A stretch of 64,000 bases of DNA, taken from Actinomycetes bacterium (lineage in GTDB: Bacteria > Actinomycetota > Acidimicrobiia > Acidimicrobiales > RAAP-2). The notes under the pieces were generated by a model, which saw nothing but the letters and a program-made list of their open reading frames with translations, had not been told where the DNA came from and did not search any database. Positions 166 through 11,949 of this stretch are shown one piece after another; position 1 is the first letter of the stretch, and each line of letters starts with the position of its first letter. The position numbers and the translations under genes were made by a program. The stretch is from NCBI GenBank assembly GCA_021845725.1, contig JAJZVL010000004.1, positions 1-64,000 on the forward strand, in the 5' to 3' direction.

Positions 166-295
166 GCACGAACCCGCAGTTCACCGGCCACATCTCGCCG
201 CGCGCATCCTGCATACGCATGCGTACGCAGGATTGATAAGGCCCCGAGAAAAAGCCCCGAGAAACTCGCATCACCGACGAGCGCCGGAATGAGAC

Positions 296-348
296 ACCGC
301 TGGTCAGGCGCCTGCACCCCTGCACGAGGTGCGCGCCTGACCAGCGGT
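296..348. terminator. Large hairpin, left copy
   Basis: A perfect 16-bp inverted repeat (ACCGCTGGTCAGGCGC and its complement) encloses a second 5-bp stem (GCACC/GGTGC), making a near-continuous 21-bp stem. The homologous hairpin at 12075-12127 sits just downstream of the initiator tRNA, so this was probably that gene's transcription terminator. There is no strong T-run, so factor-independent termination is uncertain. Confidence 0.5.
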
Positions 349-353
349 CGTGG

Positions 354-403
354 TGGCGGGGGTTCAGGACCATCGCACGACCTGCGGGTGACGAACCCGA
401 CGA
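354..403 (-). pseudogene. Decayed 3' half of initiator tRNA
   Basis: These positions match the 3' half of the tRNA at 12133-12182 with the same spacing. The acceptor stretch (GGCGGGGG on the plus strand) is intact. The next 15 bp, the T-arm, are scrambled, and the anticodon arm matches at 15 of 20 positions, with the CAT anticodon changed. No 5' half follows. This is what remains when an integrating element that carries a replacement tRNA 3' half displaces the original. Confidence 0.7.
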
Positions 404-689
404 AGGTGCTGGTCAGGAGGTTGCCCTATGCAGCTGCCTGGGCAGTTGCCCTACCCAAGTCGGTCCGTACGTGCCGATGTCCCGAGAAACTCCGCAACAA
501 GGATGCACCTTCGGGATCGTGACCCGAAGATCCGCTACCCGGAGCGGCCCGGCGGTGGCCCAGTCGACTGCCTCGTCGCCGTCCACCCGGGAGACGGCCG
601 AGCCGCCGAGCGATCCCGAAAGCACACGAGATCACGCCTCGTGGGTGCCTCTTTCTCGATATCGGTGGAAGGGGGCGCAGTCGCCGCTC
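404..689. other. Intergenic, nothing recognisable
   Basis: Between the tRNA remnant and the toxin gene I see no coding region with family resemblance and no clear repeat. Open frames here are typical high-GC noise. Confidence 0.5.
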
Positions 690-956
690 TCAGCTGCGGT
701 AGGCGTCGCGACGGTGGTCGATGTCGAGGACGTAGACGGTCCGGGTCTCGTCGTCGATGCGGTAGCGGACCCGGTACTCGCCGCGCCGAGCCCGCCACTG
801 CCCTTCGAAGGGCTTTCGCAGCGGTGCTCCTACTCGGCGGGGGTCCAGCGCGAGCGGGCCGAAGACGAACTCGATGCACGCCGCAGCGACCGCTTCGGGC
901 AGGTCCTCGGCCAGGCGCCGCGCCGCGCTCCGGGCCACGACGACCCGGTGGCTCAC
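690..956 (-). CDS. RelE/ParE-family toxin
   Basis: This is an 88-residue toxin of the RelE/ParE superfamily, which usually acts as a ribosome-dependent mRNA interferase (RelE branch) or a gyrase poison (ParE branch). The fold signature is visible: an N-terminal helix (SAARRLAEDLPEAVAAAC), then the strand-rich core with KPFEGQWRARRGEYRVRYRI and the C-terminal VYVLDIDHRRDAYR. The arrangement and the tail match RelE-type toxins better than ParE. It follows the antitoxin with a 4-bp ATGA overlap (953-956), so the two are translationally coupled. The frame looks intact. It lies in the accessory region, where such pairs often stabilise mobile DNA. Confidence 0.85.
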   Translation of the reverse strand: MSHRVVVARSAARRLAEDLPEAVAAACIEFVFGPLALDPRRVGAPLRKPFEGQWRARRGEYRVRYRIDDETRTVYVLDIDHRRDAYRS

Positions 957-1240
957 CGTGACTGCTGGTGATGGTGGCGGGAGACGAGATCTCGAACTGC
1001 TCGCTCATCGAGCACCTCCCCCGCGGCGATGTCCGCGTCTGCCACCCGCAGACGGTCCTGGGCGTCAGGATCGGCGAGCAGTTCGAGGGTGGCCTCGATC
1101 GACTCGAGGTCCTCGGCGGCGAGGAGCACCACGTACTCGCGCCCGTTCTTGGTGATCTGGACCCGCTCGTGGGTGGTCGCCACTTCTTCGGCGATCTCGG
1201 ACAGCCGGGCTTTGACCTCGGACAGCGGCAACATCGTCAT
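953..1240 (-). CDS. Phd/YefM-family antitoxin
   Basis: This 95-residue antitoxin would neutralise the toxin encoded immediately downstream and probably represses the shared promoter. The N-terminal Phd/YefM DNA-binding and dimerisation fold is clear: PLSEVKARLSEIAEEV, then THERVQITKNGREYVVLLA and the AAEDLESIEATLELL helix. The C-terminal part is charged and probably folds on the toxin. The start is ATG at 1240, only 8 bp after a perfect TATAAT, so the mRNA is probably leaderless. The second ATG two codons later is possible. Confidence 0.87.
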   Translation of the reverse strand: MTMLPLSEVKARLSEIAEEVATTHERVQITKNGREYVVLLAAEDLESIEATLELLADPDAQDRLRVADADIAAGEVLDERAVRDLVSRHHHQQSR

Positions 1241-1248
1241 CGACTAGA

Positions 1249-1276
1249 ATTATAGTTTGCGTGGTGATCCGGGCAA
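1249..1276 (-). promoter_or_regulatory. Promoter of the toxin-antitoxin operon
   Basis: On the minus strand, TTGCCC (1276-1271) is followed after 16 bp by a perfect TATAAT (1254-1249). Transcription would start at or within a base or two of the antitoxin ATG. A consensus -10 box is unusual in such GC-rich DNA. Confidence 0.65.
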
Positions 1277-1296
1277 GCACACCGGCGAGATTGCCT

Positions 1297-1601
1297 CTGG
1301 TACACATGGGTGACCTCATCTACGAGCACCGGATGGCCGCTTGAGCTGGGCAGACAGGTTCTCGGCACCCACAGGCTACCGCCGCATCCACGGTGAGCTC
1401 GCCACCATGGGGATCCTCATCGCCCCTTCGAGCGTCTGGGCGATCCTGAAGTGCCACGGCGTCGAGCCGTCGCCACGAAGGTCGGGACCGACCTGGGCGG
1501 AGTTCCTTGTCGCACAGGCGAAGGGACTGATGGCCTGTGACTTCTTCCATGTCGATTCCGTGCTTCTCCGCAGGCTCTATGTCTTGGTGTTCAGCCCGTA
1601 G
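1297..1601 (+). pseudogene. Integrase-core transposase: C-terminal tip fused to middle fragment
   Basis: Two pieces of one transposase family lie head to tail. Positions 1297-1344 encode the extreme C-terminus (GDLIYEHRMAA, stop), and the same tail closes the copy ending at 7561. After about 25 bp of noncoding IS end, 1372-1601 encodes the middle of a related protein: GYRRIHGELATMGILIAPSS, then TWAEFLVAQAKGLMACDFF with a catalytic Asp, ending at a premature stop. The order (tail before middle) shows that at least two copies were rearranged or nested. Confidence 0.75.
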
Positions 1602-1676
1602 GGTCCGAAAACTCGATCATACCGCTGACCAGGACGTTCGCGTGGATGGCCGGTCTGGCTACCGTCCGCCTTCACC

Positions 1677-1931
1677 ATGGGAACACCCGATCGTCCCCGT
1701 CACGGGCTCTGGTCGTTCGCCTACCTCGCTGTCCGGCGAGTCCTCTCGCTCGTCCCGCTCGCCCTGCGAACGAGCGGGTCCAAGGAGATCGAGATCCTGG
1801 TGCTGCGCCACGAGCTCGAGATCCTGGGTCGCAACCAGTCGCGGCCACCCCTCGACCCAGTCGATCGGGCGTGGCTTGCCGCGCTGAGCCGGCTCCTGGG
1901 AAAGGAGCGCTGGTCGAGCCGGACTTACTGA
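1677..1931 (+). pseudogene. Integrase-core transposase N-terminal fragment
   Basis: This encodes an N-terminus typical of the same transposase family: a hydrophobic leader, then KEIEILVLRHELEILGRNQ and PVDRAWLAALSRLLGKERW. The frame stops at 1931, where the family normally continues into the helix-turn-helix linker and catalytic core. Without the DDE core the fragment cannot transpose. Between this and the IS1634-type gene (1932-2032) I see nothing else. Confidence 0.7.
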
Positions 1932-2032
1932 GCTGGTAGGCACGCATGAGAGCGAAATTGGGGTGCTGAGCAGGGGGAACGGGCGCGGCGGGGCTGAGGG
2001 GTCGTGTTACTACGCGAGTCTGTGAGCTGGGA

Positions 2033-3778
2033 CTACTCAGCCGGCGTCGGCAGCTCGTAGTCGAGGATCTGCGCCGGCTCGCGGATCTCGAGCGCGGCGA
2101 GGATGTCGCGCTGGCGATTGGTCGCCGCCGAGCGCTTGGCGATGCGGCCTTCTCTCGTCTCGAGGGTGACGAGGTGCATGCGGTCGAGCTCGTGACGGAG
2201 GTTGCGCCAGGTGTCGCCCGTCGCGTTCTCCGCCACCCGGATGAGGAGCAGCCCGAGCCAGCAGAGCTGGACGTGGCTTCGGATGCGGTCTTCGCGGTGA
2301 TGGTAGACGGGCCGGAGCCGCAGCGAGCCCTTCAGGTCCCGCCAGCCCCGCTCGACCTGGGAGAGCTGCTTGTAGGCGAGGGCGAGGTCGGTCGGGGTGA
2401 GGGTGTCGTCGTCGCTGCGGATCAGCCACTTGCCGTCGAAGTGGGCGTCCCGGTCGATGGCAGCCTTGTCGATGCGGAGCTTGTGGTCCTTCGTTCGCCG
2501 GAGGAAGCGGGCGAGTCCCGGCGTGTTCCGCAGCTCGCCGACGAGCTCGTCACGACGCTGCTTGGACCAGGCGTCGCTTCCTTCGATGCGCCGCTCCAGG
2601 TAGGCGACGAGGTTCTTGCGCACGATCTCGTCGCGGGCCTTCGCCTCGGGGTTCACACAGACACAGAAGCGCTCGGCGCGTGCGCCCTCGCCGACACGGA
2701 CCTCCTTCACCGAGAGGTTGCGCTCGACGAGGTGGTAGCGCCCGGGGCGGGAGAGCGCGGCCTTGGCGTGGGTCGCCGCCATCCGGAGCTTCTCGCAAAC
2801 GACGTAGTGGTCGCCGCCGCGGCTCAGGTAGGCGCGGTTGGTGGCCGAGTTGAAGCCCGAGTCGGTCACCCAAAGAAGGCGGTTCAGCGTCCAGCTCCCG
2901 AGGTCGTCTTTGATGCGCCGGATGACGAGCTGGTCCGAGGTTCGCCCCGGGAAGGTCCAGCAGCGGATGGGGATGCCCTCTTGGGTCACGGCCATCGCGA
3001 TCACGACCTGTGGCAGGTCGGGCCGGTGGTCCTTGGAGTGCTTGGAGAACTGGCGGAGTGCCACCTCCTCGGGCACCGACGGGCCATCGTCCCCGGAGGC
3101 CTCTTGCCCCTTCTCCTCACTCGCCGCGCGTGCCGTGGCGAGGTCGATCTCCTCGTCGGCCACGTCCACCTCCCAGTAGGTGGACGAGGTGTCGACGAAG
3201 ATCACGTCACAGGACAAGTTGAGCAGGTTGGCGGTGCGATCGAAGATGCCGGTCGTGATCTCGCCGAGAGCGTCGAGGAGGAAGTCCATCGCCGCATACG
3301 CCGCCTGGTCGTCGAAGGAAGGACATGAGAGCAATGCGACCCGCTCACGTGCCCACGAGACACACGCCAGCTTGGAGGCGGGTTCGAGGCATCGCTGGGC
3401 GACGAGCGCGAACAGGACCCGCTCTGCCACCTCGCCATCGAGCCGGCGGCCCCTGGCCGCGCCCTCGAGCGCCCGGGCGATGCCGAGGCGGTGCCAGAGC
3501 TCGTCGAGCACGTACGCGCCCCCGAAGCGGCGGGCATCGACGATCTCGACGTCGCTGCCCTCGGTCGCGGCCACGGCCTCTGCGGGCTCGAGGAAGCGGC
3601 CGATCGAGGTGACGAGCCGCCTCAGCGCCTCGCGGTCGACCTTGTCGGCTCGGCCGAAGCTGTGGATCACCTTCGCGACCGGTGAGCCCGTCACCGGATG
3701 GCGCACGTTGTGGGCGAGCTGGAGGTAGGAGACGACCGAGCCGTCCTTGTTCGTCCGGCGGGTCTCTCGCAGGTACAC
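2033..3778 (-). CDS. IS1634-family transposase (apparently intact)
   Basis: This 581-residue transposase has the length and domain order of IS1634 proteins, the long-protein branch of the IS4-type DDE elements. It opens with VYLRETRRTNKDGSVVSYLQ, typical of the family. The catalytic residues are visible as IFVDTSSTYWE (first Asp), WVTDSGFNSATNR (second Asp) and the helical YKQLSQVERGWRDLKG region (Glu with the Y-R-E-K-like signature). No frameshift is seen. The start chosen is GTG at 3778; the region before it has only a weak ribosome site. I could not find convincing terminal inverted repeats by eye, so the element's ends are undefined. It is the only mobile gene here that looks able to work. 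Confidence 0.88.
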   Translation of the reverse strand: MYLRETRRTNKDGSVVSYLQLAHNVRHPVTGSPVAKVIHSFGRADKVDREALRRLVTSIGRFLEPAEAVAATEGSDVEIVDARRFGGAYVLDELWHRLGIARALEGAARGRRLDGEVAERVLFALVAQRCLEPASKLACVSWARERVALLSCPSFDDQAAYAAMDFLLDALGEITTGIFDRTANLLNLSCDVIFVDTSSTYWEVDVADEEIDLATARAASEEKGQEASGDDGPSVPEEVALRQFSKHSKDHRPDLPQVVIAMAVTQEGIPIRCWTFPGRTSDQLVIRRIKDDLGSWTLNRLLWVTDSGFNSATNRAYLSRGGDHYVVCEKLRMAATHAKAALSRPGRYHLVERNLSVKEVRVGEGARAERFCVCVNPEAKARDEIVRKNLVAYLERRIEGSDAWSKQRRDELVGELRNTPGLARFLRRTKDHKLRIDKAAIDRDAHFDGKWLIRSDDDTLTPTDLALAYKQLSQVERGWRDLKGSLRLRPVYHHREDRIRSHVQLCWLGLLLIRVAENATGDTWRNLRHELDRMHLVTLETREGRIAKRSAATNRQRDILAALEIREPAQILDYELPTPAE

Positions 3779-4198
3779 GCCTACCAGATCAGCACAATGA
3801 GCTGTTCAGATCAAGTACCCGTGTGCCTACGCCCTCTAGAACTTCAGGAGACCCGCAAGCCTTCTAGCAGCCATGATGGATCTGGGACTCCGCCTGGATG
3901 CCTACGAGCTCAGCAAGTCCGGCCTGACGTGATTCCGCCAGGTCAGGGCGTTGTCAGGCTCTCGATTTGCCTACGTACTACGGAACTCCGGCCAGACATC
4001 TCATTCAGTCGTGCGACGCTGCTGGGTTTCCTAAAGGCCGAGTTCAGGGGGCGGACCGAACATATGATCCTACAATCTGTAGCCGCTGGCGGGTATGAGA
4101 ACATCTGCCATACCAGGATCCACCGGAACCGCGTCAGGCCGCCGTCGGCGACAGGGAAGGCGAGCGTGTAGTCCAGATCGGAATGATCTCGACGGCCC
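3779..4198. other. Intergenic, no gene recognised
   Basis: The 420 bp between the transposase and the TetR gene hold no convincing gene. The minus strand at 4090-4170 reads as a protein-like stretch (LDYTLAFPVADGGLTRFRW), which may be the tail of a lost gene downstream of the TetR regulator, but I cannot assign it. Confidence 0.4.
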
Positions 4199-4816
4199 CT
4201 ACGTGCTCGCGCCTCGGCACGGTCCCGTCCATCCGGCCAGCAGTCGATGCAAGACCTCTTTGTACTGCTCGGCTGCCTGGGGTGTTGCGCCGGCAAGGGC
4301 TTGGGCAAAGGGGGTCGGTAGGAACCAGATGAAGAGCGCGCCGAGCGCGACGAGCAGGAACTGCTCGGCGTGACCTTTCCCGGACGCGCCAGCGCTAACG
4401 CTTTCCGCCCATTCGAGCAGCGCGTCCCGCAGGTGGGCGATGCGGGCGTGGTATTCGGGTAGGGCGGGGCCCTGGCGGACCGCCCCGGCATCGACGAGGA
4501 GTTGGGCGAGCCCGGGTTGGGCCCCGACCAGCTCGAAGCAGCCGTCGATGAGCAGTCGGATCTGCTCGCTCGGGGTGCCGCCAGCGTGGAGGACCCGGCC
4601 GATGAGCTTTTCGACTTGGTCGAGCGCGTCGAGGAGGAGTTGGAGGAGGATCTCGTCTTTGTCCTGAAAATAGTGGTACAGCAGGGTTCGGTTGATACCC
4701 GCGCTCTGCGCGATGTCGGCCATGTTGGTCTTGGCATAGCCGTGGTCGGCGAAGACCTGCCGCGCAGCACCCAGGATGTGGTGGCGTTGGATGTCGGGGG
4801 CGATCCTGGTCCTCAC
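4199..4816 (-). CDS. TetR-family transcriptional regulator
   Basis: This is a 205-residue ligand-responsive repressor. The N-terminal TetR helix-turn-helix is at about residues 10-55: RHHILGAARQVFADHGY, then INRTLLYHYFQDKDEI with the usual YxxF turn. The remainder is an all-helical ligand and dimer domain with a hydrophobic patch (LLVALGALFIWFLPTPF). The gene overlaps the preceding SDR gene by 4 bp (4813-4816), so they form one operon. A 19-bp TetR-like palindrome lies at the head of this operon (7122-7140), which suggests autoregulation of the SnoaL/acyl-CoA synthetase/SDR/TetR cluster. The inducer is unknown. Two genes of the cluster are broken. Confidence 0.9.
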   Translation of the reverse strand: MRTRIAPDIQRHHILGAARQVFADHGYAKTNMADIAQSAGINRTLLYHYFQDKDEILLQLLLDALDQVEKLIGRVLHAGGTPSEQIRLLIDGCFELVGAQPGLAQLLVDAGAVRQGPALPEYHARIAHLRDALLEWAESVSAGASGKGHAEQFLLVALGALFIWFLPTPFAQALAGATPQAAEQYKEVLHRLLAGWTGPCRGAST

Positions 4817-5787
4817 CGGAGCATGCCGTCCTTATCGGGGCCTGCGAGCGCGGCGAGAGCGGCGCTGGTCGATTCGTGGAGGTCGTAGGCCGTGACGAAG
4901 CCCGTGCTCCGGAGCTTGGTGTCGTCCCAGATCCGGTCGTGGCAGAGCGCCTCGACCGCGTAACGGGTCAGGCCGGGCCGCCTGGACAGCATCTCTTGCG
5001 TGGCGGCGACACCGAGCGCCAGCGGACGGGGGATGTTCCTCGCCTTGGCGACCACGCCTCGGTAAAGGTCGAGGAGGCCTTTCAGCTGCGCCCAGGAAAG
5101 CTCGAAGCCTCGCAGCAGGTAGGTCTCCCCGGCCGCTTCGGGCAGCCCGGCGAGGACGGCCATAGCCCTACCTATGTCGCGGGCGTCGACGCAGGAGAAT
5201 CGGGACCTGCCGCCGTCGATCATCGGGAAGGCGTTCGCTTCGTGCGCTCGGACAAGGCGCGAGAAGAAGGAGTCTTTATCGCGGGCTCCGATCGTGCTGA
5301 CGGGCCGCAGAATGACGTGGTCGATACCGGCAGCCGTGGCCGCGGCGCGCACGGTGTCTTCGCGCTCGACGGCCAGCCTGGAGATCGGGTGGGTGGGCCG
5401 GCAGGGAGTGGTCTCGTCGGCCGGGCAGATGCCGGGCGCGAAGCCGTAGACGACGATGGTGGACAGCTGCACGAAGCGGCCTGCGCCGGCGTGTGCGGCT
5501 GCGTGCACGAGCTGCCGGGTGAGTTCGACGTCGACGTGGCGCGCCTGGCGGGGAGAAGCCTGGACGGCGGCGGTGCAGTTGACCACAACATCGGCTGCGC
5601 TGGTAGCTGCCTCGATGCTCGACTGGTCGGCGAAGTCCACCTGGGCGACTCGCACGCCGACGCTGTCGAGGAACACCCGATCCGACCCGGCGCGAAGCGG
5701 CGCTATGACGTCGTGTCCTGCCAGGTGGAGCTGCTCGGCGACGTGGCTGCCGATGAAGCCGCTGGCGCCGAAGATCACCGTCTTCAT
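4813..5787 (-). CDS. Extended SDR / NAD-dependent epimerase-like protein
   Basis: This is a 324-residue Rossmann protein of the extended short-chain dehydrogenase/reductase class, using NAD(P). The N-terminal nucleotide motif is FGASGFIGSHV, followed by an acidic strand end (VDFADQSSI) and VVNCTAA. The substrate-side sequence VQLSTIVVYGF is present, but the usual YxxxK catalytic pair is not evident where expected (PISRLAVERED), so the activity may be atypical. The C-terminal part resembles the 3-beta-HSD/sugar-epimerase group. The gene is followed by the TetR gene with a 4-bp overlap and preceded by the remains of an acyl-CoA synthetase, which suggests a lost catabolic operon. The substrate is unknown. 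Confidence 0.85.
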   Translation of the reverse strand: MKTVIFGASGFIGSHVAEQLHLAGHDVIAPLRAGSDRVFLDSVGVRVAQVDFADQSSIEAATSAADVVVNCTAAVQASPRQARHVDVELTRQLVHAAAHAGAGRFVQLSTIVVYGFAPGICPADETTPCRPTHPISRLAVEREDTVRAAATAAGIDHVILRPVSTIGARDKDSFFSRLVRAHEANAFPMIDGGRSRFSCVDARDIGRAMAVLAGLPEAAGETYLLRGFELSWAQLKGLLDLYRGVVAKARNIPRPLALGVAATQEMLSRRPGLTRYAVEALCHDRIWDDTKLRSTGFVTAYDLHESTSAALAALAGPDKDGMLR

Positions 5788-5855
5788 ACCGGGGTCAACT
5801 CCGCGTGTCCGCCGGCCCGCCGGCCCGCCGGCCGGTTCGATGCTGCCGGGCAGCT

Positions 5856-6900
5856 TCAGCTGTCATCGATGGTGTCTCCTTCGATCGGATGGGACTCAGC
5901 AATAGCGTCGGGGATCACCAGCAGGCGTTTCGGGTGTTGCTGGACCGTGGCCTGCGTCGATTGGCGCAACGCGGCTCGGTCGATCCTGCCGACGGCGCGC
6001 GTGGGGAGCTCGTCGAGGACCCCGACGGTCCTTGGCACCTTGTAGTTGATAGGGGTTCGAGCAGTGCTCCTGCAGCTCGTCGGGGTCTGGTTCGGCCCCT
6101 CGGGCAGCCACCACGAAGCCGCACGCGACGTGTTGGAACAGCGTGTCGGCCACATCCACGACGCAAGCGGCGACCGCGGGGCGCTGCTCGAGGACAGCTC
6201 GATCTCGCGGGGATAGGCGGTGACCCCTCCCGACCTGAAGCCGTCGCCGGGGCGGCCCGCGAGGCGGAACCTGCCACCACTGTCGACCAACCCGAGGTCG
6301 CCGCTGTGGTACCAGCCATCGCGGTCGAGCACCGCGACGCTCGCCTCGGGGTCGCTGTGGTAGCCGGCGAACACGCAGGCTCCGCGCACACAGACCTCAC
6401 CCACGGTCCCCTCGCCGGCGTGGCGGCCGTCACCGGTGAAGATCGCCACCTCGAGCTGCGCCAGCGGCACGCCGACCGTCTCGCAGAGCTCGGCCAGGGA
6501 GGCGTCGGGGCCCGATAGCGACACCGGGCCGCTCATCTCCGTTCCGCCGTAACCGGTGGACAGCGTCGCGCCAAGGCGCGACAGCCCGCACGCCGTCTCG
6601 GCCGGTATCGCCGAGCCGCTGGAGAACACCGTCGAGACGCTCGACAGGTCGAAGGTGTCGAGATCAGGCGGCGCGAGCCGCATCGAGAACTTGGCCGGCA
6701 CCTGGCCCCACACGGTCACCCGCTCGCGCTCGAGCAGCTCCACGGTCCACCTGACCGTGAACCGCTGCAAGGCGTACACCGTGCCGCCCGCGAGCAGAGT
6801 CGACAGCGACACGTCGCCGACTGGGCCGAAATGGCGGATCGGGATGTGCATCAACGAGCGCGAGGCGCTGTCGAGTCCGAGGTGACGCTCCGGGGCGCCG
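5856..6900 (-). pseudogene. AMP-dependent acyl-CoA synthetase, truncated and frameshifted
   Basis: This is the remains of an ANL-superfamily acyl-CoA ligase. Recognisable parts, in order, are the middle domain (IPIRHFGPVGDVSLSTLLAGG), the adenylate motif region (LSTGYGGTEMSGPV), the hinge and hydrolysis region (YHSGDLGLVDSGGRFRLAGR) and the C-terminal tail (INYKVPRTVGVLDELPTRAV, then GRIDRAALR). The N-terminal half, with the P-loop-like Thr/Ser/Gly motif, is missing. The reading frame shifts near 6200 and returns near 6050. It lies between the SDR gene and a truncated SnoaL-like gene in the TetR-controlled operon. Confidence 0.8.
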
Positions 6901-7078
6901 TAAGCAGCCCGACGACCGCGCCGCGGCCTTGGTAGTCGCCCACGTTCCGGTTCCGACCCGCCGCGTGCCACACCGCGTCATCGGCGAGGTAGCTGCGGAT
7001 CGTCTCGATGTCACCGCGAGGAAATGCGGCGTACAGCTCCCGCACGATCGTCACGTTCGGATGTTCCCCCAAGGACAA
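6895..7078 (-). pseudogene. SnoaL-like (NTF2-fold) protein, 3'-truncated
   Basis: This is the N-terminal half of a SnoaL/ketosteroid-isomerase-like protein: NVTIVRELYAAFPRGDIETI, then SYLADDAVWHAAGRNRNVGD. The family is normally 120-140 residues, but this copy loses similarity after about 57 residues (GAVVGLLT), where the sequence runs into the acyl-CoA synthetase remnant. That is the signature of an internal deletion. The start could be TTG at 7078 or TTG at 7072. The second is better spaced from the GGAGG at 7081-7085. Confidence 0.65.
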
Positions 7079-7109
7079 GTCCCTCCTCGGTCCGTCGCCA
7101 ACGACGACA

Positions 7110-7140
7110 AGCTAACGAGCTATTGACACTGTGTCAATAC
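7110..7140 (-). promoter_or_regulatory. TetR-type operator overlapping a promoter
   Basis: TATTGACAC-T-GTGTCAATA (7122-7140) is a perfect 9-bp-arm palindrome. Read on the minus strand it supplies a -35 TTGACA (7138-7133) spaced 17 bp from TAGCTT (7115-7110). A repressor bound here would block RNA polymerase. It stands 44-62 bp before the SnoaL-like start, at the head of the operon that ends with the TetR gene at 4199-4816. Confidence 0.7.
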
Positions 7141-7162
7141 CGCTCCTCCTTGCAGCATCTCG

Positions 7163-7561
7163 ATGGAGCTTTCCGACCACGCGAGCTCGATCGAATTCCT
7201 CGTCAGCGATCGCGACATGAAGTTCACCGCCTCCTTCGACGCCGTCGTCGCCGCCGACGGCACCAGGTCATCGCCACCCGTCCGAGCGCCCCGGGTCAAC
7301 GCCACCTGTGAGCGCGTCGTCGGCACCTTCCGGCGCGAGTGCCCCGACCGGATGCTCACCCTCGGACGGCATCGCCTCGACGCAGTCCGTGCCGAGTGCG
7401 TGGAGGATCACAACACGCACCGGCCTCGCCGGTCCCTCAGCCAACGACCGCACGCTGACTCCGATGGGACCCCTCTCAGCGTCGGCCATGTCGACGCTGC
7501 CAGGCTACGAAGAGCCGATCGCCCGAGTGGTCCCGTCCAAGAGTGCCGGATGGTCGCCTGA
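7163..7561 (+). pseudogene. Integrase-core transposase C-terminal fragment
   Basis: This is the C-terminal half of an rve-type transposase of the same family as the fragments at 1297-1931. It has IEFLVSDRDMKFTASFDAVV with the second catalytic Asp, then APRVNATCERVVGTFRRECP with the catalytic Glu, then DHNTHRPRRSLSQRP and the tail VQECRMVA. The N-terminal half is absent. The sequence just after its stop (CTGGGCAGATGGGGTTCTCG) nearly repeats that after the tail at 1344, marking the IS right end. Directly beyond lies the truncated transglycosylase gene, which the element probably interrupted. Confidence 0.8.
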
Positions 7562-7570
7562 ACTGGGCAG

Positions 7571-8266
7571 ATGGGGTTCTCGGCGCCAGCAGGTTCGAGG
7601 CGGCCGTGTTTGCCGCCTACGACCGCCGAACCCACCTGGCGACGCCAGCCCGCCGTCCCCCCGATCACGCGACCGACGCCGTCTACGCGGCCGCCCGGAT
7701 GTTCTGCGCCAACGGGGCGCAACGCGGTGCCGACATCTCCGGAGCAGTGTTCGCCTACCACCACGCGTCCTGGTACGTGACAGAGGCCCTTGCCCTCACC
7801 CAGCCCTACGGGCAGACCCAGGCCTAGTCGCCGCCGCCGTCGGCACGGCGGGGGGGTCGCGTTCGACTGCGCCCTCGCCCGGGTCGGCGGGCCCGATATC
7901 CGGGCCGGGTAGACCTCAGGGGTCGGCTCCGACTGCTCCTGGCTCACACAGGCTGCGTACAAGGTGGCGAGGATCGCCCTTACCCGCACCGCCCAAGAGC
8001 AGTGCGACGCGGAGCCATAGGTTGCACTGAACACGCCACTCCAGCCCGGCGACCTCGTCTTCTTCGGGAACGGTCCCACGGACGTGTCGCACGTCGGGAT
8101 CTACGTCGGTGTCCAAGGCGGCCAGAGCGTCATGGTCGACGGGCCCCATACCCGCGCCGACGTCATGGTCGAGCGCTTCCCGGATGCGGGCGGTTCGACA
8201 TGGGGCGGAGAGACCTATCTGGGCGCGACAGCACGTCGCCGCTTCCTCGCTTGTGGTGTCCCTCGT
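7571..8266 (+). pseudogene. Lytic transglycosylase / NlpC-P60 (C40) cell-wall hydrolase, broken
   Basis: Two degraded domains lie in order. Positions 7590-7827 encode the end of a lytic transglycosylase (FEAAVFAAYDRR, DAVYAAARMFCANGA, AVFAYHHASWYVTEALAL). Positions 7856-8252, in another frame, encode an NlpC/P60 peptidase: DCSWLTQAAYKVA with the catalytic Cys, then LQPGDLVFFGNGPTDVSHVG with the catalytic His. In-frame TAG codons occur at about 7913 and 8021. Bifunctional proteins of this build are typical of actinobacterial conjugative elements, where they open the cell wall for the transfer channel. The 5' end was lost at the neighbouring IS fragment. Confidence 0.78.
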
Positions 8267-8290
8267 TATCGGCGGCGCGAGCCGGAGTCC

Positions 8291-8875
8291 CTATCCGGGA
8301 TCGTCGACGACGTCGACGATCCCGCTCGGAGCTTCGAGGAGCATGACAGTCCGGTGGGCCGCCTCGTCGACATGGATGCGGGGCGGGTCCGGTCGCGTGA
8401 CCGGGTAGTAGGTGCCGGGGCCGAACAACTGGCCATAACGGACGACGACGCCACCTGCGTCGAGCACCGAGCGCTCGAGGAACGCGACCGCTTCACCACC
8501 GTCGCCGGGGAGCGTCCAGGCGACGCTCTGGGCGATCACCCGGGCGCTGCAGGTGCACGCTGCATCGACAAGGTTCGTCGTCCCCTCGCGCCGCATCCGG
8601 CTGTTGGCCGCGGCCTGCTCGCGGACCTGTGCGACGTCGTCGGGCAGGTCGGTGAGCTGATGGACCACGACGTCAGGGGAAAAACCAGCCACGGCCCGGA
8701 ACAGCGCGTCGCGCTCGAAGACGTCGCAGAAAACCGGCTCAGCACCGACGTGTCGCAACCAGTCCGCCTTCCCCGGGGTGCGGGTCATCCCTGCCACGTC
8801 GTGACCCCCTTCGACGAGCAACGGCACGAGGTGGCGACCGATCACACCGGTCGCGCCTGCCACGAAGATCCGCAC
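8291..8875 (-). CDS. NAD(P)-binding SDR-family protein
   Basis: This 194-residue protein has a Rossmann N-terminus (IFVAGATGVIGRHLVPLLV) and SDR-like features: FCDVFERDALF, then VVVHQLTDLP, and VIAQSVAWTLPGDGG. It ends near residue 194, after IHVDEAAHRTVMLLE. Many epimerase-like relatives run to 230-300 residues, so the C-terminal substrate-binding part is short, either natively or by truncation. The gene is convergent with the decayed cell-wall hydrolase and 9 bp downstream of the MFS remnant. The substrate cannot be told from the sequence. Confidence 0.75.
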   Translation of the reverse strand: MRIFVAGATGVIGRHLVPLLVEGGHDVAGMTRTPGKADWLRHVGAEPVFCDVFERDALFRAVAGFSPDVVVHQLTDLPDDVAQVREQAAANSRMRREGTTNLVDAACTCSARVIAQSVAWTLPGDGGEAVAFLERSVLDAGGVVVRYGQLFGPGTYYPVTRPDPPRIHVDEAAHRTVMLLEAPSGIVDVVDDPG

Positions 8876-11482: not shown

Positions 11483-11591
11483 GGCGAAAAGGCTAAGCGG
11501 CAGATTCTTCGGGCTAGCCCGAATCGTCTCTGCGGCAACGGCTTCGACCGCATCGGGGCCCGCAGGGACCAACTGCTCGCTCAAGCTCCGT

Positions 11592-11675
11592 GAGCGGGAG
11601 CGGGAGCGGGAGCGGGAGCGGGAGCGGGAGCGGGAGCGGGAGCGGGAGCGGGAGCGGGAGCGGGAGCGGGAGCGG
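11592..11675. repeat. (GAGCGG)14 hexanucleotide tandem repeat
   Basis: Fourteen uninterrupted copies of GAGCGG span 84 bp. The tract is upstream of the MDMPI-like gene and outside any convincing coding region. Perfect copies suggest a recent or ongoing slippage tract, so its length probably varies between isolates. Confidence 0.95.
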
Positions 11676-11949
11676 GACGTTCACTGAAACCCAAGTGCGA
11701 GGTACGACCATCGATGAGATGGGGCGGCCGACGCCAAGTCGAGGGGCCTACCTCGCGATCACCGCACACACTTCTCCCCGGAGAAGAGAATCCGCAGGTC
11801 GATCGGGATGCCGAGTAATCGCCCTCCCGCTCGCCTCCGGGCGCGATCCCGTCGAGATCTCCTTGATCAGGGCACTGCATACGCATGCCCTGTGCATGCA
11901 TGCGCAACTCGACGTCGACCGGCCGCATCGCGGCGCGCCGGTCTACGCC

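Follow-up and report, generated by a model that had tools for sequence, protein, structure and literature searches.

A minus-strand gene unit in the window, the whole 64,000-nucleotide stretch of DNA analysed here, is quite probably, judging from sequence comparison, the decayed remnant of a catabolic operon autorepressed by a TetR-family regulator, with the switch still positioned on its original promoter. From 7139 down to approximately 4086 the minus strand carries, in order, a palindrome, a leader, a SnoaL-like remnant, an acyl-CoA synthetase (ACS) remnant, an extended-SDR gene, a TetR gene and the stub of a metallo-beta-lactamase-fold (MBL) gene (Table 1). An initial sequence-only reading had described a unit of SnoaL-like, ACS, SDR and TetR genes with an operator on the -35 element, and the sequence supports this arrangement. 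Its statement that two of four genes are broken is correct for the SnoaL-like and ACS genes but incomplete for the unit, which displays the remnants of probably six genes, the hydrolase having been lost and the MBL gene reduced to a stub.

Table 1. Coordinates of features in the window and in the fuller operon of genome G647.
Feature	Position	Strand	Basis or remark
IS1634-family element	1913..3928	-	30-nt ends, 87% complementary; downstream of operon
MBL-fold (metallo-beta-lactamase, lactonase-like) gene stub	4086..4232	-	DNA identity to G647 MBL gene
TetR-family regulator gene, intact, 205 aa	4199..4816	-	TetR_N profile
Extended-SDR gene (Epimerase family), intact, 324 aa	4813..5787	-	Epimerase profile
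ACS remnant, C-terminal part	5856..6896	-	Pfam AMP-binding, DNA comparison
Deletion junction	6896..6897	.	L043 5311 joined to 7523 (blastn against fuller operon)
SnoaL-like gene remnant, 5' part only	6897..7072	-	SnoaL_2 positions 1-51 of 102
Promoter	7109..7137	-	TTGACA 7137-7132, spacer 17 nt, TAGCTT 7114-7109
Inferred TetR operator	7121..7139	.	19-bp palindrome, unique in genome within 3 mismatches
IS481/IS3-like transposase fragment	7163..7561	+	starts 24 bp outside palindrome
G647 contig L043, SnoaL	5135-5575
G647 contig L043, alpha/beta hydrolase	5677-6915
G647 contig L043, ACS	6912-8573
G647 contig L043, SDR	from 8637

Operator and promoter

The palindrome, TATTGACACTGTGTCAATA, displays perfectly matching arms (9/9) around a centre of 1 nt and reads TATTGACACAGTGTCAATA on the minus strand, where it occupies the upstream end of the unit. 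As the sequence-only reading had noted, it includes the TTGACA of a promoter; the predicted operator spans this -35 hexamer and much of the promoter spacer, and is followed by a short leader carrying a GAGGAGG ribosome-binding site. TAGCTT is a weak -10, identical in G647, where both hexamers and their spacing are as in the window (TTGACA-17-TAGCTT); the counterpart hexamers of a second genome, G432, are TTGACG and TGAATC. A stock sigma-70 consensus scan called no promoter at the window site.

By rarity alone the palindrome is no better than chance, as 13 different perfect inverted repeats (arm length at least 9 bp, spacer 0-10) lie in the window, compared with a mean of 12.85 in 20 Markov-1 sequences (mean 1.6 for spacer 1 alone). 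This frequency would fit a chance inverted repeat, and the proximity of the IS481 fragment would fit an origin within that element, but both are extremely improbable in view of the retention of the site, in register, before the G647 and G432 operons despite different upstream DNA. Thus, it is conservation at the same place in both genomes, and not rarity, that identifies the palindrome as real. The G647 site, TATTGACACCGCGTCAGTA, presents 2 mismatches and the G432 site, TATTGACGCAGTGCCAGTA, 3 mismatches, with 0.00 expected in each case (200 shuffles). All three loci with readable upstream DNA (window, G647 and G432) carry the site in their sequence, and no relative possessing this TetR but lacking the site was found among them. 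Homology between window and G647 DNA extends precisely as far as the outer boundary of the site (window position 7139, corresponding to L043 5071) and stops there.

A search of the 3.05-Mb genome draft (92.5% complete) for the 19-bp palindrome, proposed in the initial reading, revealed no other copy within 3 mismatches. That reading had also suggested, from the intact SDR and TetR genes beside broken enzyme genes, that the pair may now serve another target. Such retargeting to another gene set is very unlikely and finds no support, because the genome has no second site within a mismatch range that covers the G647 and G432 sites (weaker sites are possible), while the sole known site, still perfect, lies on the unit's own promoter. 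The operator strings had no match in the literature searched, and the exact operator was not found in viral contigs.

Relatives of the operon

Close relatives of the SDR and TetR are rare. At E ≤ 1e-18 the TetR search recovered 2 of 395 class genomes, and the SDR search 2 of 298 order genomes at E ≤ 1e-35 and 4 of 397 at 1e-30, the own genome being counted in all three; at 1e-40 the SDR search gave 2/42 in the family of G432 and 1/396 in the phylum, the latter being the own genome. The genome samples of the TetR and SDR searches overlap. Besides the own genome, only G432, G647 and G1085 were recovered. Among 100 relatives, the TetR retrieved, besides itself, generic TetR matches only (best 60 bits). 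G647 and G432 belong to another family of the same order. The G1085 match, contig L032, shares 99.25% identity with window 208-5665; the differences cluster at window 266-352, none falls in SDR, TetR or the gap, and the contig ends before the operator site. Assigned to another GTDB family and with a coverage of 1.33, L032 is probably misbinned and was therefore not counted as independent; the comparison rests on three distinct loci.

The search for intact relatives, also proposed initially, led to G647, whose fuller operon comprises the site, SnoaL, alpha/beta hydrolase, ACS, SDR, TetR and a lactonase-like MBL gene that is itself broken by one stop and one frame change. The operon is distributed over contigs L043 and L044, the latter carrying the SDR end, TetR and the MBL gene; a 305-bp overlap (99%) between the two led us to take them as adjacent and to infer that the operon is contiguous across them. 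An imperfect 65-bp direct repeat (81.5%; L043:4999-5063 and L044:8017-8080), either att-like or a recombination scar, flanks the G647 operon; a DNA search of the window genome and of G432 did not recover it.

In comparison with G647, the SnoaL remnant of the window begins with TTG in place of ATG and, together with the leader, shares 78% DNA identity with L043 5071-5311 (blastn). Approximately 2.2 kb is absent at the junction, where a single deletion removed the SnoaL 3' part, the entire alpha/beta hydrolase and the ACS 5' part. The ACS remnant matches only positions 200-384 of Pfam AMP-binding, and its C-terminal domain contains frameshifting indels of -1 and -2 nt; the remnant also has two 3-nt indels. 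The MBL stub, the start of which overlaps the 3' end of the TetR gene, runs into the G647 MBL gene at 85% DNA identity (0/500 in a shuffle test). The ancestral operon thus probably had six genes. Elsewhere in the genome neither an intact ACS (the next is 34% identical) nor an intact hydrolase (the sole match, at 41%, spans 99 residues) was found. No hydrolase was recovered at E ≤ 1e-60 in 355 class genomes, a sample without positive control.

In G432 the site and a leader homologous to that of G647 (0/500 shuffles) directly precede the SDR-TetR pair. Enzyme deletion is likely in this lineage too, although G432 could be ancestrally short instead of trimmed, as a SnoaL remnant was not significant there (166/500 shuffles). 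A short MBL similarity in G432 was significant against G647 (0/500) but not against the window (168/500). Close to the G432 pair (L040:12212-14617) there is a polyvalent protein with an LPD1 domain, which suggests a mobile element.

The SDR and TetR proteins

The two final genes, reported as intact with a 4-bp overlap, indeed have open reading frames that overlap by this length. The TetR protein matches PF00440 at 62.7 bits, with the TetR_N helix-turn-helix at residues 13-58, and the helix-turn-helix and recognition region are nearly invariant in all three loci. Among named equivalogs (BetI, FadR, FasR, KstR and others) the best score was 52 bits, the NCBIfam cut-off being 118. The SDR matches PF01370 at 109 bits and retains the Rossmann GxxGxxG as GASGFIG. 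The canonical catalytic YxxxK is missing from the SDR clade in the sequence alignment: the position is occupied by PISRLA in the window, PISKLA in G647 and G432, and PIQKLL in a 40%-identical Priestia relative; three other SDRs have PYxxxK at this position. Lack of the usual residues at this position suggests that the SDR is a non-canonical or non-catalytic protein; a single-sequence structure model (pLDDT 38) was too poor for checking the active site. NmrA-type proteins are NAD(P)/ligand-binding sensors or co-regulators. It is conceivable, although doubtful, that the SDR acts in this way, as an NAD(P)/ligand-binding sensor or co-regulator of TetR, and that the two proteins constitute a minimal regulatory pair, kept together with the operator when lineages, the window's and perhaps that of G432, shed their enzymes.

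Selection and age of the decay

Omega values between window and G647 were 0.33 (0.25-0.44) for the ACS remnant, 0.23 (0.16-0.34) for SDR and 0.20 (0.13-0.32) for TetR. On these values, the decay is probably recent. Retention of SDR and TetR may just reflect this recency, and their intact frames are no proof of present use. It is a substantial possibility, compatible with the autorepression reading, that SDR and TetR are also free of selection and that the decay is too recent for them to have been hit: the ACS omega range overlaps those of SDR and TetR, which would fit a short time since the decay, and even G647 has a disrupted MBL gene. Pointing the other way, the nonsynonymous share is slightly higher in ACS than in SDR and TetR (Fisher p 0.033, a weak comparison of different proteins), and G432, too, retains only SDR and TetR. 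Furthermore, with changes polarised by G432, which left 47 sites that could not be polarised, SDR and TetR accumulated 46 synonymous and 33 nonsynonymous changes in the window lineage (33/79) and 64 and 55 in the G647 lineage (55/119), showing no nonsynonymous excess in the window (p 0.56).

Proposed mechanism and relation to known systems

TetR regulators repress as dimers on a palindrome over the -35 and are released by a ligand. Under the autorepression reading, the TetR dimer would bind the 19-bp palindrome, blocking the overlapping promoter, and a ligand, probably the pathway substrate or an intermediate, would release it. The ancestral genes probably encoded a SnoaL-like protein, an alpha/beta hydrolase, ACS, SDR, TetR and an MBL-fold hydrolase. 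The closest solved relatives of the G647 hydrolase, the gene missing in the window, are SMU_737, 2,6-dihydroxypseudooxynicotine hydrolase and AntI, and the MBL protein resembles AidB-type lactonases, below cut-off. On the basis of these likenesses, an ester, lactone or beta-diketone may have been hydrolysed and the released acid converted to its CoA thioester. The acid-activating part would have been destroyed in the window by the deletion and the two frameshifting indels, with the MBL gene cut to a stub, leaving promoter, operator, SDR and TetR; if expressed at present, the switch most likely controls its own transcript only.

The system is of an ordinary kind and its decay series, a fuller operon, a partial deletion and an SDR-TetR pair alone sharing one operator, is well documented. 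The G647 operon constitutes a direct lead to the substrate, and the series offers a simple way to ask whether a repressor that persists after its pathway is gone does so through drift or because something retains it.

A worked example of such a mechanism is EdcR of Caenibius tardaugens: its TetR gene lies inside the edc cluster for estradiol degradation, EdcR represses cluster promoters and responds to the substrate and an intermediate, and the regulatory arrangement is thought to be horizontally transferred (PMC8700777). Both systems have a TetR gene inside a catabolic gene set, whereas enzymes and substrate differ. In contrast with edc, the window operon has lost most of its enzymes. TetR-type regulators that act on acyl-CoA pathways, such as KstR2 and FadR, share TetR_N with the window TetR, although sequence matches are weak and the window protein falls far below their NCBIfam cut-offs. 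KstR2- and FadR-type regulons include a CoA ligase. Identity with an olefin (ole) cluster was rejected, the SDR scoring 51.7 bits against an OleD reductase cut-off of 580 (NCBIfam) and a Streptomyces ole-like cluster being a distant relative only.

Among plasmids the Priestia protein was the best SDR match, its plasmid carrying no such operon; TetR matches were distant only, and hydrolase matches reached at most 36%, with one neighbourhood read. Viral contigs yielded no SDR relative and one 33% TetR stretch. An operon like that of the window was not found among the matches listed in further searches. Apart from the unit, the window contains a short-unit repeat tract at 11581-11690, the reading frames of which give RERERE, APAPAP and SGSGSG.
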